Below are positions 55,241 to 64,000 of a stretch of 64,000 nt of DNA, piece after piece (the stretch's first letter is position 1; each line of letters opens with the position of its first letter). The position numbers were made by a program, and so were the translations under genes. Source of the DNA: Acidobacteriota bacterium (lineage in GTDB: Bacteria; Acidobacteriota; Thermoanaerobaculia; UBA5066; Gp7-AA6); assembly GCA_027307335.1 (NCBI GenBank), contig DAHUXD010000049.1, positions 1 through 64,000 of the forward strand, given 5' to 3'. The notes under the pieces were generated by a model that worked only from the letters and a program-made list of their open reading frames with translations, searched no databases and was not told the origin of the DNA.

Positions 55241-56482
55241 TCAGTTCGCGCGGGCGCGGACCGCGGCGCGGAAGGCGCGGCGGCCCTCCTCCTCCGGAAT
55301 CTGGTCGGCGAGCGCGGCGCCCAGCGCGACGAGGTTCGGCGCCGTCTTCGCCGCGCGCTTGACGAGCACCTTCGCGAGCGGGCCGATCTGCCGGGCGAGC
55401 TCGACCTCGACGAAGTGCAGGTCCTCCTCCCGGAACGCCGGGAGGGGCGTCGCCGCGGGAGCCGCCGAGGACGCCGCCGCGGGACCCGGCGCGGACGCGT
55501 GGGCCCGGGAATCCCCGGCGCCGCGGGACGGCTCCGGCCCGCGCGCGGCCGAAGGGGCCGGCGCACCCGGGGCATTCCGCGTCGGGTCGGCTTCGCTGAC
55601 GAACGTCGCGATCGCGCTCGCGGTGGGCTCCGACGGCTGCGGCGTCTCGCCGATCTGGAGCTTGTACAGGTCGCGGTCGAGCGCGTGGACGTCGCGGTAG
55701 CGCTCGTCGCGGTCCTTGGCCATCATCTTCCGCAGGACCCGGCACACGCCCTCGGAGAGGTCCGGCACGTACGTCCGCGGATCCGGGAGCGGGTGCGTCA
55801 GGTGCATCGACATGATCATCGCGCCCGACGTGCCCTCGTACGGCGCGTGCCCCGTCACGAGCTGGAAGAAGGTCGCGCCGAGCGAGTAGATGTCGGCGCG
55901 GGCGTCGATGTCGCGGACGCCGCGGATCTGCTCGGGCGAGATGTACTGCGGCGTGCCCACCGCCTGTCCGGTCTGCGTCAGGGCCTGGTCCTCGTCGATC
56001 CGCTTGGCGATCCCGAGGTCGACGATCTTCAGACGGTCGCGCCGCGCGGTCAGCATGAGGTTGTCGGGCTTGATGTCGCGGTGGACGATCCCCTGCGCGT
56101 GGGCGACGCCGAGCGCGGCGACCGCGTGGCGGACGAGGAGCACGGCGTCGCGCTCGTTGAAGCGCGCCTTGCCGAGGAGCGCGCGGAGCGACGGCCCGTC
56201 GACGTACTCCATCGCGAGGAAGTAGGTGCCCTCCTCGCAGCCGAAATCGTAGATCTGGACGATGTTCGGGTGATTGAGACGCGCGGCCGAGCGCGCCTCC
56301 TTCAGGAACCGCTGGACGAACCCGCTGTCGGAGGAGAACTGCGGGGCGAGCGTCTTCAGCGCGACGATCCGGTCGAGCGTGACGTTGCGCGCCCGGTACA
56401 CGCGGCCCATCCCGCCCGAGCCGAGGACGTCGAGCACCTCGTACGCGCCGAAGCGCCGTCCCGCGAGGTTCGGATCCGTCAA
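55241..56482 (-). CDS. Ser/Thr protein kinase with C-terminal helical domain
   Basis: 413 residues. Kinase lobe: GSGGMGRVY, the VALK lysine, HRDIKPDN, DLG in place of DFG (KIVDLGIAKR) and GTPQYISPEQ. An Ala/Pro/Ser-rich linker (about 295-345) leads to a helical C-terminal domain (FVEVELARQIGPLAKVLVKRAAKTAPN) often seen at the ends of bacterial kinases; it looks like a partner-binding unit. There is no transmembrane segment. The start is TTG 56482, 13 nt after the DUF3365 gene. This suggests the heme-type sensor upstream and this kinase are one signalling unit. Confidence 0.9.
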   Translation of the reverse strand: MTDPNLAGRRFGAYEVLDVLGSGGMGRVYRARNVTLDRIVALKTLAPQFSSDSGFVQRFLKEARSAARLNHPNIVQIYDFGCEEGTYFLAMEYVDGPSLRALLGKARFNERDAVLLVRHAVAALGVAHAQGIVHRDIKPDNLMLTARRDRLKIVDLGIAKRIDEDQALTQTGQAVGTPQYISPEQIRGVRDIDARADIYSLGATFFQLVTGHAPYEGTSGAMIMSMHLTHPLPDPRTYVPDLSEGVCRVLRKMMAKDRDERYRDVHALDRDLYKLQIGETPQPSEPTASAIATFVSEADPTRNAPGAPAPSAARGPEPSRGAGDSRAHASAPGPAAASSAAPAATPLPAFREEDLHFVEVELARQIGPLAKVLVKRAAKTAPNLVALGAALADQIPEEEGRRAFRAAVRARAN

Positions 56483-56495
56483 GCCGCCGTCCGCG

Positions 56496-57371
56496 TCACT
56501 CGTCCTCGAGCATCTTCAGCGCCTTCACCAGGCTGATGCGCATCCGGTTGAAGGACCCGGCGAGCGTCGCCACCTCGTCGTGGCTGCGGAAGAGGACCTC
56601 GGGCACGTCGAGGTTGCCCGTCGACACCTCGTCCGCCATGTGCGAGAGCCGGCGGATCGGGCGGATGATGAAGAGCCACAGCAGCGCGTTCAGCAGGAGG
56701 AGCAGGAAGAGGAAGACGCCGACGAGCGACACGAGCATCGCCCGGTGCGCGTCCGAGGCCATGCGCAGCGGCAGAGCGAGCGGCACCGTGACGATCTGGG
56801 CGCCAATCGTCTCGTTGAGCTTCCAGCCGAAGCCGCCGTTCGGGCCGTACCGCTTCACGACCGAGGCCGGCGTCGCCTCGGGCGTCGTGTGGCAGGACAG
56901 GCAGCCCGGGTCCGTGACGACGATCGGCCGCGCGAGATAGAGCGCGCGGCCGAGGGGCGCGTCGCGCTCGCCGATGATCTCCGGCAGCTTCGGGTCGGAG
57001 CGGAATGCGTTGACGACGTCGGCCTCCCAGTCGACGGTGCGGTCGCGGGGGTTCGTCGGGTTGAGCGTCGCCTCCTTGTACGTGTACTCCGGGTGCGTCT
57101 CGTGCAGCGTGTTGAAGATCTCCGTCGCCGAGTAGGCGGGCACGGTCTGGGGGAGGAACTCCTCGTCCAGGCGCGCCGCGAGGAGCGGCTTGATCTGCTT
57201 GTTCGTGTAGCCGCGGGTCGCGAGGGCCGTCTGCAACATCAGGCGGGCGTGCTGCACGACCTGGGTGCGCGCGTTCTTCTCGAGCAGGTTCTTGGTGATC
57301 AGGTGCGCGGGCACCAGCGCGATCCCGAAGCAGAGGACGAGAATCAGGTTGAACTTGGCCAGAAGCGACAT
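56496..57371 (-). CDS. DUF3365 (Tll0287-like) heme sensor with HAMP domain
   Basis: 291 residues. An N-terminal membrane helix (about 5-25) leads to a periplasmic Tll0287-type domain containing CLSCH (about residues 155-159), a c-type heme site, with nearby LYLARPIVVTDPG. A second helix (about 211-236, LVGVFLFLLLLLNALLWLF) precedes a HAMP linker (IRPIRRLSHMADEVSTGNLDVPEV, then EVATLAGSFNRMR) and ends at MLEDE without an output domain. It should read redox state or ligands such as NO or O2 outside the membrane and pass the signal by HAMP rotation. GGAGGT lies 7 nt before ATG 57371. Confidence 0.85.
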   Translation of the reverse strand: MSLLAKFNLILVLCFGIALVPAHLITKNLLEKNARTQVVQHARLMLQTALATRGYTNKQIKPLLAARLDEEFLPQTVPAYSATEIFNTLHETHPEYTYKEATLNPTNPRDRTVDWEADVVNAFRSDPKLPEIIGERDAPLGRALYLARPIVVTDPGCLSCHTTPEATPASVVKRYGPNGGFGWKLNETIGAQIVTVPLALPLRMASDAHRAMLVSLVGVFLFLLLLLNALLWLFIIRPIRRLSHMADEVSTGNLDVPEVLFRSHDEVATLAGSFNRMRISLVKALKMLEDE

Positions 57372-57396
57372 GAATCTGACCTCCCGGGAAGGCCCG

Positions 57397-57402
57397 ATTC
57401 TA
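57397..57402 (-). promoter_or_regulatory. -10 element TAGAAT for the heme sensor-kinase operon
   Basis: TAGAAT on the minus strand lies 25 nt before the ATG at 57371, leaving a leader with GGAGGT. Confidence 0.4.
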
Positions 57403-57433: not shown

Positions 57434-59932
57434 CTACTCGCGGCGCAGCGCGATCGAGGGGTCGAGGCGCACCGCGCGCCGCGCCGGGAGGTACGAGGCG
57501 ACGAGCGCCGCCGCCGCGAGGAGCGCCGCCACGCCGGCGAAAGTGCCCGGATCCGTGGCGCTCACGCCGAAGAGGAGGCTCGCGACGAGGCGCGTGACGG
57601 CGAACGACGCGACGACTCCGGCCAGGAGGCCGATCGCGGCCAGGCGCGCTCCCTCGCCGACGACGAGGCGGAACACGTCGGCGCGCTCGGCGCCGAGCGC
57701 CATGCGGATCCCGATCTCCTGCGTGCGCCGCGCGACCGAGAACGCGACGATGCCGTAGATGCCGACCGCCGCGAGCAGCAGCGCCGCCGCCGCGAAGACG
57801 CCGACGAGGAGGAGCAGGAACCGGCGGTCCGCCAGCCACACGTCCATCTCGTCCCCGAAGGTCGAGACCCGCACCGGCAGGTCGGGAGCGAGCTCCCGGA
57901 ATGCCTCTCGGGCGGGCGCCGCGATCGAGGGCGCCGACGGCGCCGTCCGCACGAGCAGGCTCGGCGTCACGTCGGGACGCAGTCCCCGCTGACGGTAGCT
58001 GACGTAGACGATCGGCGGGGGCGGCTGATCGAGCCCGAGCGCGCGCACGTCGCCGGCGACGCCGACGATCGTCAGGGGTGCGAGGTCTCCGTCCATGTTG
58101 CCGAAGTTGATCGTCCGCCCGATGGGATCCTGTCCGGGCCAGCGCTCTCTCGCGAGCGCCTCGCTGACGACCGCCACGTGCGGCGCGTTCCAGTCGTCGC
58201 CGTCGCGGAAGAGCCGTCCCCGCACGAGCGGAATTCCGAGCGTCCGGAAGTAGCCCTCGTCGGCCACCGCGTAGGAGGCGTGGCCGGTCGCGGCCTTGTC
58301 GCGCGCGAGCCGCCCCCACTCGTCGAAGTCCGCGGGCGACGGCCGTCCGTCGAGCACGAGGAACGTGCCGTCCGCGAGGTCGTCGCCCCCCGCGGCGGGG
58401 ATCGCGCCCGCGAGGCCGACCCCCTCAACGCCCGGCAGCGCGCGCAGCCGCGCGACGAGCCGGTCGACGAGCGCGATCTGCCGCACCACCTCGGGCGGCG
58501 CGCCGCCGGCCGTCGGGATCGCCGGGGTGAGACCGGCCTGGCTCCGGTCCGGAGCCGAGAACTCGATCGTCGAGAGATGGTCGGAGCGGAATCCCGGACT
58601 CGTCCCGACGAGCCGCACGAAGCTCCGGCCGAGGAGGCCGGCGGCGACGAGGATCACCAGCGTGACCGCGATCTCGCCGGCGACGAGCGCCGCGCGCAGG
58701 CGCTGGCTCGATCCCGTGCCGGACGACCCGCGCGATCCCGCGGCGAGCGCCTCCCCGAGGCGGCCGGTCCCGGCCCGCCACGCCCCGACGAGCCCCAGCA
58801 CCGCGGCGACCGCCGCGCTCGCGAGGACGGCGAACGCGAGCACCGGCAGGCTCACCGCGATCCCCGCCTGGCGCGGCAGGTTCGCCGGCAGGATCGACGG
58901 GAGCGCGCGCACCGCGGCGAACGCGATCGCGATGCCGAGGGTGCCGCCCAGGCCGGCCAGCGCGACCGCCTCGCCGAGGAACTGCTGCAGCAGCCGGCCG
59001 CGGCCGGCGCCGAGCGCCACGCGCACCGCGAGCTCGCGGCGCCGGGAGGCCGTCCGCGCGAGGAGCAGCCCGGCGACGTTGGCGCAGGCGACGAGGAGGA
59101 GCAGCCCCACCGCGCCGGACAGCGTGAGGAGCGCGGTCGAGACGTCGCCCACGACCGCCTCGTGGAGCGGGACGACCACCGCGCCGACGAGGTCGACGTC
59201 GGCGCCGTACCGGCTCCGGATGCGCCCCGCGATCGTCTCGAGGTTGGACCGCGCCGACGCGAGACCGATGCCGGGCCGCAGGCGGCCGATCGCGCGCCAG
59301 TTGTGCGCCGTCCGGCTGGGGAGCTCGGGCTCGAGCTCCCGCGGGATCCACACCGCCGCGCCGGGCGGAAAGTCGAACCCCGCGGCCATCACGCCGACGA
59401 CCGGGTAGACGGACCCGTTCATCACGACTCGCCGGCCGGAGAGGTCCGAGGCGCCGTCGAGGTAGCGCCGCCAGTAGTCGTGGCTGACGACCGCCGCGGG
59501 CGCGCCGTGGACCCGGAGCTCCTCCGGAGCGAAGAGGCGGCCGCGGTCCGGGACGGCGCCGAGGATCGGGAAGAAGCCGCTCGACACCTCCGCGACGTCC
59601 ACGCGAGCCGGCTCGCGGCCCCCGGACACGGCGGAGGACCCGTAGGCGTAGATCGCCATCTCCGAGAAGGTCTCGTTCTGGGACCGGAAGTCGTCGAAGT
59701 TCGGATCGGCGAGATTCATCCGCCGGCCGTTCGGCGAGCGCTCCCAGACGCGCACGATCTCCTCCGGGTGCGGGAAGGGCAGCCGCCGGAGGAGCACGGC
59801 GTCGACGACCGAGAAGATGGCGGTCGCGGCGCCGATCCCGAGCGCCAGCGTCAGGACCGCGACGGCCGAGAATCCCGGCGACTTCCTCAGGGTCCGCAGG
59901 CCGAACCGCAATTCGCGAAGAAACGTTTCCAT
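57434..59932 (-). CDS. ADOP-family ABC permease (acidobacterial duplicated orphan permease)
   Basis: 832 residues. Two MacB_PCD periplasmic domains (about 20-245 and 430-640) and two FtsX domains (about 285-400 and 710-825) are arranged as one fused pair, with eight membrane helices. Start [20 protein letters not shown] and end [17 protein letters not shown] are standard for the family. There is no ATP-binding protein beside it; ADOPs are known to lack one. Related MacB-type permeases extrude peptides, toxins or lipoproteins or signal mechanically. GGAGGT lies 5 nt before ATG 59932, with TATCTT as candidate -10. It follows the SPASM enzyme on the same strand. Confidence 0.93.
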
Positions 59933-60066: not shown

Positions 60067-61308
60067 CTAACAAGTCGAGGGGCCAGACACCTCGACTCGA
60101 ACCGTCGATCGGATTGGTTGCGGGTCGAGGATCGTCGGAGCAGATGCTCGGATGCGGGAATGGAGGGCTGCCCGATGCTTGTCGACCATCCGGTTGAAGT
60201 CGCACTGGATCGCCGGGATCCGGGTCGAGTCGACGCCTCCGAGCGCGATCGATGCGGGACAGATGAAGCAGTTTCCAAGGGCCGAGCAATCGCGGCAGCG
60301 GCCGAACGGAGAACGCTTCTCCGATTTGCCGGTCAGAAGAGGTAGCTCTCGAACCCTCCTTTCCCGGGCCAGGAGCTCATCGTCGAGATTGGGATCCTCG
60401 ATGTGAATCGAGCCGAGAGCCTCGATGGCGTCGCGTAGAAGCGGCACAGGGTGTCCCACGCACGATCTCGCCATCGCGGCGCAGGGGGCGAGAGAGCCGT
60501 CGACGTCGACGAAGAGCTCCTTCCGGGTCGCCGTCGTGCACAGACTGGTGGCCTGAGCCTGGGGGGAGTTTCGTCTTCCATCGCTCCGGAATGCCAGGAA
60601 CGGGACTTCTCCCAGCGAGGCGTGCACTCTGAGCGATTCCTCGACCACGCCGGCGAGCTGCGTGTCGAGCTCGTCCCGCGCGGCGGGACCCCACCCGGGA
60701 TCGCTCGTGATGAGCGGGGCGACGTCGATCTCGCCGACGCCGCGAGAGACGAAGTACCGAAACGAATCGGCCAGGTGCGGGACGTTTGCCGACGTCAGCG
60801 TGGCCTTCACGGTGAGCCTGTTCCGGAAATGACCCGGATGATTGACCCGTAAGTGCGTGAGCATCCGGTCCAGAACATCGAAGCTGCCACGTCCCCTCCG
60901 GTCCTGGGCGCCGGGCACCCCGTCGATCGACAGAGTGATGTGGACATCCGCGTCCACGAGGAATCGAGCCGTCTCCGGATCGAGCAGGAGGCCGTTCGTG
61001 CAGATTCTCACGTCGGGACGCATCCGCGTCGGCGCCCCCGCCCGAACGATCTCGACGGCCCGCCGCACGAGCGACTTCTCCAGGAGCGGCTCCCCTCCGA
61101 AGAGATCCAGCGTGGGATTGTCGCAGTCGGATCGGAGGAAGAGGCTGATGCCCGCCTCGAGAATGCGAATCGGCATCGACGCGGGTGCACCCCGCTCCTG
61201 GTAGCAGTAGGCGCACCCCAGATTGCAGCGCGTCGTCAGCATGAGAACGACGGACCGGGGGCCGGCGGCCAGATAGTCTCGAAGACGGTTCCGAGGCCTA
61301 CCGGCCAT
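60067..61308 (-). CDS. Radical SAM/SPASM peptide-maturase-like enzyme
   Basis: 413 residues. The SAM cluster is C28-x3-C32-x2-C35 ([14 protein letters not shown]), with GGEPLLEKS and [10 protein letters not shown] as in peptide-modifying members. The SPASM region is complete: C257-x13-G-x4-C276, then C338-x2-C341-x5-C347-x2-C350 and C369, enough for two auxiliary 4Fe-4S clusters. Such enzymes make thioether or carbon-carbon links in ribosomal peptides or mature quinohemoproteins. The ATG lies 8 nt after the stop of an 80-residue peptide gene with a Gly-Gly site; no strong ribosome binding site, so coupling is likely. Alternative: an anaerobic sulfatase-maturing-type enzyme, but no sulfatase is nearby. 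Confidence 0.9.
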
Positions 61309-61316
61309 CGGCGTCT

Positions 61317-61559
61317 CTAGAGACCAACGTACTTGCCCCAAACGACGGCCAACGCCGCCAGACGCGCAAAGTCCGCCGGCAGCGGTGGCACCAAGCAACC
61401 CGGCACGAACCAGCTACCACCTGCGATTCGATCGTCGCTTCTCACGGTCTCCATATCGAATTCCGTGCCCCTTTGCGTCTCCAGCCACTCGATCGTGGGA
61501 TCCGTCAATTTCCTCAGATCCCTCACGTACTTCAGGGCTTCGTCGACACTGATCCTCAT
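61317..61559 (-). CDS. Putative precursor peptide with Gly-Gly leader site
   Basis: 80 residues. Residues 1-48 are polar and charged (RISVDEALKYVRDLRKLTD..., ending SDDRIAGG); residues 49-80 are hydrophobic and aromatic, SWFVPGCLVPPLPADFARL then AALAVVWGKYVGL, with one Cys at 55. The GG at 47-48 with Ile at -4 resembles a double-glycine leader site for a C39-type peptidase, and the C-terminal 32 residues would be the core. GGAGG lies 7 nt before ATG 61559. It directly precedes the SPASM enzyme. An alternative is a small accessory protein; no family is recognised. Confidence 0.65.
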   Translation of the reverse strand: MRISVDEALKYVRDLRKLTDPTIEWLETQRGTEFDMETVRSDDRIAGGSWFVPGCLVPPLPADFARLAALAVVWGKYVGL

Positions 61560-61614
61560 CTGAGTCCTCCTCTCCCCGCATCGGATTCATCTGGAAAGCC
61601 GAATGAGACGCGTG

Positions 61615-64000
61615 TCATGAGTGGCCGCCGGACAATCCGATCGTCCACAGGTTCCCCTTCGTGTCGGCGATGTCCACCGCGAGGTAGCGGCCGTCACGGG
61701 TGAGACTGAAGTATCCCGGCGCGTCTCGATTACCGAGACCGACATCCGGCGCGAGCGGCTCGGTGGCACCGGTCTCCAGCCGCACTCTTCGGATCCGAAG
61801 GGTCGAGGTCCCCCACATGCCGGTGGCGAGAAGAGATTGGCCGTCGGCGTCCCACGTGGCGTAATGGATTTCCGCTCCCGTCGTCACCTGTCGGCACGCT
61901 GCGCCGCCGCTCGGCCTGGTCACCCAGATCTCGCCATTCCGCACGAAGAGCAGCCGGTCACCGCTCGGTGAGAAGTTGGGAAGCTTGTCGACTTCCTCGC
62001 CGTCGGTCAGCTGCCAGGGCTCCCCGTTCGCCGACGCCCCGCGCAGGGGAAGGATCCAGACGTGCTCGAGCCCCGACCTGTTCGATACGAAGGCGAGCTG
62101 CGACCCATCCGGCGAGAAGGCGGGGTGGACGTTCCTTCCCGGATGAGTGGTGATGCGGACGGGTGTGCCCCCTCTTGCCGGGAGCATCCAGATGTCGCGT
62201 TGGCCCTTCACCGCGCGAACGTAGGCGATCCATTGCCCGTCCGGAGAAAACGCGGGCGTCACGGGGGCCGTCTCCAGATCGGTGAGACGTTTCGCCGGTC
62301 CGGGAGAGGGGCGGCCGTCCGTCAAGGGCTGCTGCCACAGGTCGAACTTCCCCAGCCGATCGGAGGCGTAGGCCACGAGGCTCCCGTCGGGTGCAATGGC
62401 CGGCATCGCATCCGTGAGCGCGCTGCCGAACCGCGAGGAAGTCCCCCGAGTCCGATCGATCACGAGGATGTCGACGCTCTGATCAGAGAACGCGCTCGAG
62501 TAGACGAGCCGGCTCTCGTCACGGGAAACGGCGGGGTGTGTCTGGGGCCCCGCCCCCGTCGATATCCGCACGGGTGTCTTCCCGTCGAGCGGTATTCGCC
62601 AGATCGCGACGATCCCGCCTCGCATCGAAGAGCAGTAGACGGAGCTTCCGGACCAGGCAGGCTCCCTGTTGACTTCGTCATCGGTCGTGAGCTGCCTCGG
62701 CTTGCCTCCTTCGAGGGCGATGACCCACAGGTTCCGGAAGTCCGAGTAGCAGATTCTGGAACCGTCGGGTGACCAGGCCGGGTCCATGTGGTCCCAGAGC
62801 CCTCCGTCATCCCCCGTGAGCCTCCGGGCATCGGTCGGGTGCTCCAACGGCGCCGTCCAGATTCGGCGCTGCCCTCCCGGCCCCAGACGGACGAATGCGA
62901 TTCGTTTCCCGTCCGGTGAGATCGCCGGCATGTCCGCGTCTTCGGCCAGAAGCAGGGGGCTGCCTCCCAGACGGGGGGCTCTCCACACGGAGGCCTTGCC
63001 GCCCTGAATCGAAACGTAAGCGAGCGAGCGCCCGTCGGGGAACCATGCTGGCTTTCCCTCCTCGCCCGGGCCGTCCGTCAGCCGCATCGGCTCGCCCCCG
63101 CGGGCGTCCACGAGCCAGATGTTGGAGTTTCCAGCGGCGTCCGAGCTGTAAGCCACGAGCGTTCCGTCGGGAGACAGAGCGGGCTCGGCGTCACGTCCCT
63201 CAGAACTCGTAATCTGCAGGGGAGGTTCTGTTCGCTCCGGGAAGCCTCTCGCCGGAGCGAGCGGCGACCATTTCAGGAGAACCCCGACGGCGGCGAGCGC
63301 CGCGACCACGGCGGCGATCGCCGCGATCCAAAGCCGCCGCGCGGAACGGGAGACTCTCGACGACGGCACGGCGGTCTGCTCGACCGAACAGGCGCTCCGT
63401 AGGGCCAGGGCAAGATCATGTGCGGTGTCGAAGCGGTCCTCGGGCCTCTTCTCGAGACAGCGGAGGACGATGCCCGCCAGTGCCGGAGGGGTCCGTGATG
63501 CCGCAAGGTCTACCCCGTCGGGCTCGCCGCGAAGGATCGCGGAGAGAGTGTCCGCCCGGGTGGCGCGGACGAAGGGGCGCTTCCCGGAAAGCATCTCGAA
63601 GAGGATGCACCCCAGCGCGAAGATGTCGGCCCGGCCGTCGACCTGAAGTCCGCGAAGCTGCTCGGGAGCCATGTACGAAACCGTCCCGACGACCTCGCCG
63701 TCGGCCGAGACCGCGCCGCCCGGAGGAGAAGTCGACGTGACCGCATCTTCGGAAACAGGCTCGGTCGACTTGGCGAGACCGAAGTCGAGAATCTTCACGT
63801 GTCCGTCGGACGTGACGAACACGTTCTCTGGTTTCAGATCTCGATGGACGATCCTCGCCGTGTGGGCGCACGAGAGGCCGTCGGCGATCGCCGCGGCCAG
63901 TTCCGCGGATTTTCGCCAGGTCAGCGTCTCGCCGCTCATTCGATCGCGGAGGCTCTCGCCGTGCAGCAATTCGGTGACCACGTAGAGACGGCCGTGGCTT
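61615..64000 (-). CDS. Ser/Thr kinase with membrane helix and TolB-like propeller (cut by right edge)
   Basis: At least 795 residues remain; the kinase N-lobe lies beyond the edge. Seen are HRDLKPENVF, DFGLAKS, GTVSYMAPEQ and RPEDRFDTAHDLA. A hydrophobic segment LWIAAIAAVVAALAAVGVLL follows, then a ~520-residue exported propeller of repeated PD40 units (AEPALSPDGTLVAYSS, PAWSPDGSRICYS, PAIAPDGSLVAYAS, PAFSPDGSQLAFVS). The architecture is abundant in Acidobacteriota: a kinase reporting on something bound outside. The stop lies 55 nt before the peptide gene, so the kinase may be cotranscribed with the peptide-SPASM pair. Confidence 0.92.
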   Translation of the reverse strand, partial: SHGRLYVVTELLHGESLRDRMSGETLTWRKSAELAAAIADGLSCAHTARIVHRDLKPENVFVTSDGHVKILDFGLAKSTEPVSEDAVTSTSPPGGAVSADGEVVGTVSYMAPEQLRGLQVDGRADIFALGCILFEMLSGKRPFVRATRADTLSAILRGEPDGVDLAASRTPPALAGIVLRCLEKRPEDRFDTAHDLALALRSACSVEQTAVPSSRVSRSARRLWIAAIAAVVAALAAVGVLLKWSPLAPARGFPERTEPPLQITSSEGRDAEPALSPDGTLVAYSSDAAGNSNIWLVDARGGEPMRLTDGPGEEGKPAWFPDGRSLAYVSIQGGKASVWRAPRLGGSPLLLAEDADMPAISPDGKRIAFVRLGPGGQRRIWTAPLEHPTDARRLTGDDGGLWDHMDPAWSPDGSRICYSDFRNLWVIALEGGKPRQLTTDDEVNREPAWSGSSVYCSSMRGGIVAIWRIPLDGKTPVRISTGAGPQTHPAVSRDESRLVYSSAFSDQSVDILVIDRTRGTSSRFGSALTDAMPAIAPDGSLVAYASDRLGKFDLWQQPLTDGRPSPGPAKRLTDLETAPVTPAFSPDGQWIAYVRAVKGQRDIWMLPARGGTPVRITTHPGRNVHPAFSPDGSQLAFVSNRSGLEHVWILPLRGASANGEPWQLTDGEEVDKLPNFSPSGDRLLFVRNGEIWVTRPSGGAACRQVTTGAEIHYATWDADGQSLLATGMWGTSTLRIRRVRLETGATEPLAPDVGLGNRDAPGYFSLTRDGRYLAVDIADTKGNLWTIGLSGGHS

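Follow-up and report, generated by a model that had tools for sequence, protein, structure and literature searches.

Ser/Thr kinases that carry PD40 propellers are numerous in Acidobacteriota genomes, and what they sense is, to our knowledge, mostly not known. We analyzed a 64,000-nucleotide stretch of DNA from an Acidobacteriota bacterium (the window, below) in which one such kinase is encoded beside a small protein and a radical SAM/SPASM enzyme. The window kinase and its counterparts in similar cassettes share with other acidobacterial PD40 Ser/Thr kinases the domain plan of kinase, membrane helix and propeller, but they form a separate clade that is tied to the radical SAM enzyme.

Among the described maturases, the PapB type that makes ranthipeptides (NF047865) gives the best curated match of the window enzyme and likewise consists of a SPASM radical SAM enzyme beside a short Cys-bearing precursor. 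The cassette differs from it in its fixed linkage to a receptor-type kinase, in its hypervariable precursors, which have one or few Cys and lack the repeated Cys-xxx-Asp/Glu (CxxxD/E) pattern in the window and its relatives alike, and in the score of the window enzyme (105.8 bits against a cut-off of 340). SCIFF/CteB, CcpM and QhpD are similar in fold and in cluster make-up. CteB has an N-terminal RRE domain (PMC8326336) that the window enzyme lacks, and the precursors are unrelated; the SCIFF precursor has six Cys, whereas the window precursor has a single one. A parallel in organization is found in comQXP(A) of Bacillus, where adjacent genes on a single strand encode a modifying enzyme, a pre-peptide and a receptor kinase (PMC4008528). 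The enzyme ComQ is there an isoprenyl transferase and the receptor ComP a histidine kinase (PMC4008528); the corresponding places in the cassette are taken by a radical SAM enzyme and a propeller-bearing Ser/Thr kinase. We take the likeness to be one of logic and gene layout and not of membership. We found no description of the radical SAM/kinase/propeller combination in open-access papers.

The window locus and the recurrence of its three genes

The genes are encoded on the minus strand of the window in the order Ser/Thr kinase/PD40 gene, 80-aa ORF, radical SAM/SPASM gene and ADOP permease gene. The preliminary description, made from the sequence alone, had placed a kinase-propeller upstream and an ADOP permease downstream on the same strand, and the Pkinase (E 1.5e-34), PD40 (TolB-like; E 2.2e-66, 8 stretches) and TIGR03434 (837 bits) matches confirm both. 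The kinase gene (61615..64000) is cut by the end of the window; in the contig it begins at position 64239 and encodes 874 aa in full, with the VAVK, HRDLKPEN and DFG motifs intact and one predicted membrane helix at residues 300-318. The small ORF (61317..61559, with its ATG at 61557-61559) is preceded by the ribosome-binding site gaggagg (61566..61572) and encodes the proposed precursor or substrate, a hypervariable protein of 80 aa (MRISVDEALK...IAGGSWFVPGCLVPPLP...) whose only Cys, C55 (codon 61395..61397), is the proposed modified residue. Its stop lies 8 nt from the start of the enzyme gene (60067..61308, ATG at 61308; 413 aa; Radical_SAM PF04055, E 9.9e-12), so that the strong ribosome site and the 8-nt spacing reported earlier hold.

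The ADOP permease (57434-59932) was considered as a cassette member and rejected, being near only 1 of the 14 relatives checked and there on the opposite strand; of the two neighbors pointed out in the preliminary description, only the kinase-propeller is a fixed member (23/23 loci). Further along the same strand (55241-57400), the ORFs read as a membrane protein that carries the haem-binding motif CLSCH, directly followed by a second Ser/Thr kinase, possibly a haem-sensor/kinase pair.

The search for homologues that had been proposed for the small protein gave nothing when the 80-aa sequence was used as a lone query: across 61 related genomes it matched only itself, and viral contigs had no match. 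The search succeeded through the enzyme, which recovered 23 loci. The first to emerge were three close relatives with the gene order of the window, followed by members of other Acidobacteriota classes; a contig pattern scan built on four close sequences reached the nearest relatives only, and the range of the cassette is counted within Acidobacteriota. In all 23 close relatives of the enzyme (21 Acidobacteriota genomes, the window included, with two copies each in G184 and G489) a PD40 propeller-kinase gene lies immediately upstream on the same strand and a small ORF occupies the gap. The full kinase is not visible in three copies, two of which are at contig ends (L142, L184). The third, L143 of genome G202, shows a gene for a propeller and a membrane helix with no kinase domain in view, the neighboring stretch being masked as N.

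The pair of small ORF and radical SAM gene is thus confirmed as real, its arrangement recurring in 23 of 23 relatives and being more than chance. No fourth conserved gene was found around the cassettes, nor did their vicinity show a conserved gene for a transporter, peptidase or RRE. We define the unit as three genes because those downstream are not conserved and are often convergent. An additional locus (L234, genome G477) has an intact kinase and small ORF beside a radical SAM gene that is either broken by an internal deletion with a frameshift or mis-assembled.

The kinase is co-inherited with the enzyme. With the window kinase as query, the cassette kinase was the best match genome-wide in each of the nine cassette genomes searched, at E values of 1e-117 to 1e-228 (own match excluded) compared with 1e-60 to 1e-92 for other kinases. 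When 22 cassette kinases were placed in a tree with 20 paralogues encoded in their own genomes, all cassette kinases fell on one side of a branch with an SH-aLRT of 100; finer details of the branching are not relied on because the tree was made by a quick method with a simple model. Kinase and radical SAM distances correlate (r 0.65, 0/5000 permutations; 0.35, 11/5000, without one near-identical row). The kinase-propeller belongs to the system as a constant partner that is inherited with the enzyme, and a functional link between it and the rest of the cassette is likely.

The propeller evolves faster than the kinase domain in two close pairs (dN/dS 0.28 and 0.06 in L139/L140; 0.47 and 0.23 in L180/L181) and not in a third (L178/L179), and this pattern therefore lends weak support to ligand recognition. 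In the small proteins, no membrane-spanning segment or evident signal peptide was seen, and for this reason they may never reach the propeller; that the propeller is the receptor of the peptide is a doubtful proposition in our estimate.

Enzymes more distant from the window enzyme (E about 1e-31 to 1e-43) are without the propeller-kinase and mostly keep a small ORF with a Cys. In these sister small ORFs the Cys lies 7-14 residues from the end, for example in TSCPRDLPNI, GRGCPRETPIIR, MCTAEHPRISPIRF, IQCTGLIPSISG and SPCPPARPGI, and CPRETPIIR is among the Cys-tailed endings. A Ser/Thr kinase of ~1000 aa with TPRs lies downstream of the sister radical SAM gene in a tail-to-tail (convergent) orientation in L236-L239, L243 and L244, and homologous TPR proteins of 611 and 634 aa are encoded upstream of the small ORF and radical SAM gene in L153 and L235. 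Because the sister loci adjoin these TPR kinases and TPR proteins, the association of the enzyme group with signalling-type proteins is wider than the cassette of the window.

The enzyme and the chemistry it may perform

The window enzyme has the CxxxCxxC of the SAM cluster (C28, C32, C35; 61204..61227), invariant in alignments of 15 and 23 rows, and a seven-Cys SPASM region (C257, C276, C338, C341, C347, C350, C369; 60202..60540), invariant in 15/15 and present in at least 90% of the 23 rows, one of which ends before the region. The complete SPASM enzyme of the preliminary description is thereby borne out, all three radical SAM and seven SPASM Cys being in place. As there are seven and not eight SPASM Cys, an open site is expected on one auxiliary cluster: by the Cys counts, that cluster should have only three conserved protein Cys, as in thioether-forming enzymes. 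Auxiliary clusters that leave a coordination site open are a trait of sacti- and ranthisynthases (PMC8326336).

The AF2 model of the enzyme (pLDDT 87.7, pTM 0.86) is disordered over residues 1-13, begins its barrel at residue 19 and has no N-terminal winged-helix RRE domain. The nearest folds by Foldseek are anSME, CteB and ChlB, and the solved structure closest by sequence is CteB (E 2.8e-33). The NCBIfam maturase models that match all 23 enzymes are PapB, CcpM, Nif11-type, HxsB, QhpD (TIGR03906) and SCIFF, among which are thioether formers. All such scores of the window enzyme are far below every cut-off shown, including the PapB score given above, which is its best, and that of the SCIFF maturase model TIGR03974 (51.4 bits, with a curated score of 425). 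We considered placing the enzymes and small proteins in existing maturase or precursor families of NCBIfam and rejected this, the matches being below cut-off or not recognized.

The best Foldseek match is an anSME (TM 0.68-0.76), and the fold does not exclude Cys oxidation. This leads to a different chemistry, in which the Cys would be oxidized to formylglycine or otherwise modified with no cross-link, as in anSME-like reactions. The auxiliary clusters of anSME are fully Cys-ligated (PMC8326336), in contrast to the seven conserved SPASM Cys found here; in addition, thioether formers are favored by the sequence profiles and no CxPxR motif is common to the small proteins, all of which makes this alternative improbable. 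We give a thioether about an even chance of being the modification.

The small proteins and their conserved cysteine

The 23 small proteins range from 61 to 142 aa, their starts having been picked from in-frame ATG codons, most of them with a recognizable ribosome site, and Pfam and NCBIfam recognized no family for any of them. An alignment of all of them is poor (mean column identity 14%), with very divergent leader sequences as well, and for this reason no global motif beyond the Cys is claimed. Homology can be seen in subgroups (L146 and L183, which come from different classes, at E 2e-5; L145 with both L185 and L152 at E about 1e-4). In leave-one-out profiles, nine members or pairs, the window included, outscored every one of their 200 shuffles, a result reached by fewer than half of the independent small proteins. 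An amphipathic helix such as ITVADLVVTVGRIEQWLCAVRKGLEAL recurs at the N-terminus, and the AF2 model of the window protein has helices at residues 5-29 and 62-78 with a low-confidence, Cys-bearing linker at 31-57.

The preliminary description had named homologues located away from radical SAM genes as evidence against a precursor-maturase pair. Profile matches of the small proteins at E <1e-10 occur only in cassettes, directly upstream of the radical SAM family (one beside a broken radical SAM gene), and weaker matches lie mostly in larger unrelated frames. This restriction and the 23/23 recurrence support the reading as precursor and SPASM maturase, which from the sequences we regard as very probable.

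Another arrangement would have the radical SAM enzyme modify another target, for instance the kinase-propeller, with the small protein as adaptor or chaperone. Since the enzyme has no RRE of its own, a separate recognition protein is plausible, and PqqD serves PqqE in this way (PMC8326336). An adaptor should be conserved, whereas the small proteins are the least conserved element while keeping their Cys, and none of the 23 has an RRE-like match in Pfam or NCBIfam; we judge such a role very improbable.

A Cys is present in 23 of 23 small proteins, with a chance expectation between 4e-5 at 1.2% Cys and 9e-10 at 0.6%; the cassette kinases contain 0.65% Cys. Most have one or two. The Cys is terminal in 5/23 (P about 2e-4) and within the last 10 residues in 11/23 (P 0.001), and its position varies, from near the N-terminus in L144 to 25 residues from the end in the window. 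In our estimate the Cys is probably the modified residue. The few Cys that had been remarked on in a peptide of no known class have thus become the constant of the family. The same does not apply to the Gly-Gly motif from which a 32-residue core was to begin: the IAGG of the window protein (residues 45-48) has no counterpart in most relatives, which lack GG, and the core is not a family feature. A C39 peptidase (PF03412) gave no match in the window genome or in 8 of the 21 cassette genomes, with positive controls, and we reject a Gly-Gly/C39 system.

Conservation over the whole length would likewise have argued against a leader and core. In three species of one genus (L183, L184 and, recovered independently with a small-protein profile, G477) 22 of 38 N-terminal positions are invariant compared with 3 of 24 C-terminal ones, the final Cys among the latter, which at the sequence level is a leader/core break within this one genus. 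The closest species pair, L139/L140, has no such break; its C-terminal half is the more conserved one, and its small ORF shows a dN/dS of 0.49 and one 3-nt indel.

The hypervariable tail, the leader/core break in one genus and a SPASM maturase related to PapB and to other RiPP maturases would also fit a conventional RiPP, with an antimicrobial or metallophore-like product and the kinase merely as its regulator. No exporter, protease or immunity gene is conserved, the GG motif and, in the genomes named above, the C39 peptidase are missing, and the kinase is obligate and not occasional, so that we hold this explanation to be improbable too.

The main rival to our reading takes as its model quinohemoprotein amine dehydrogenase, whose small gamma subunit is cross-linked by QhpD. 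The small protein would be a subunit that stays in the cell, and cross-linking or oxidation by the radical SAM enzyme would turn it into a stable partner of the kinase domain. The small proteins are without a membrane helix, no exporter or peptidase is conserved, the QhpD model matches 23/23 enzymes and the AF2 model shows two helices joined by a Cys-bearing loop, all of which counts for such a subunit. The extreme divergence of the small proteins, strongest C-terminally in the genus trio, would be unusual in a protein that fits a conserved partner, and the gamma subunits have several cross-links compared with the mostly one or two Cys found here. We consider this rival unlikely on the whole.

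A proposed peptide-kinase unit and its meaning

We propose a three-gene cassette made up of a receptor-type Ser/Thr kinase with its propeller beyond the membrane helix, a hypervariable precursor and a dedicated SPASM radical SAM enzyme. The enzyme would recognize the amphipathic helix at the N-terminus of the small protein as a leader and modify the C-terminal part of this protein at or around the conserved Cys, most probably with an intramolecular thioether. Together with the kinase encoded beside it, the modified peptide would then act as a signal or switch, either sensed or controlled by that kinase. The gene order, the co-inheritance of kinase and enzyme, the complete cluster ligands, the constant Cys and the leader/core break in one genus count for this proposal. 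Against it count the divergent leaders, the under-half result with the shuffles, the reversal in L139/L140 and the unfixed position of the Cys, as do the lack of a conserved transporter, peptidase or RRE gene and of a membrane segment or evident signal peptide. A simple secreted pheromone is further disfavored because no exporter, protease, GG motif or evident signal peptide was seen and, in the window genome, no C39 peptidase was detected. On balance we favor the proposal as a whole, in which a small precursor would undergo a Cys-anchored modification, probably a thioether, and work with a dedicated receptor kinase. More tentatively, and with less than even confidence, the hypervariable peptide, Cys-cross-linked by its own radical SAM enzyme, may be the cognate ligand or switch of the co-inherited Ser/Thr receptor kinase (with a propeller here and TPRs in the sister lineages) and serve strain-specific communication in Acidobacteriota.

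The pieces of the cassette are of known kinds. Neither the enzyme group nor the small proteins fall in a curated family, and the cassette adds a SPASM enzyme family not yet catalogued and a hypervariable family of small proteins, which the standard family libraries miss. It also gives one clade of PD40 kinases a dedicated small protein and modifying enzyme, and because of this experiments on just three genes can directly address what the ligand or target is. If confirmed, a radical SAM peptide coupled to a Ser/Thr receptor kinase would be new, and our results suggest that the cassette is an undescribed peptide-based signalling unit in Acidobacteria.
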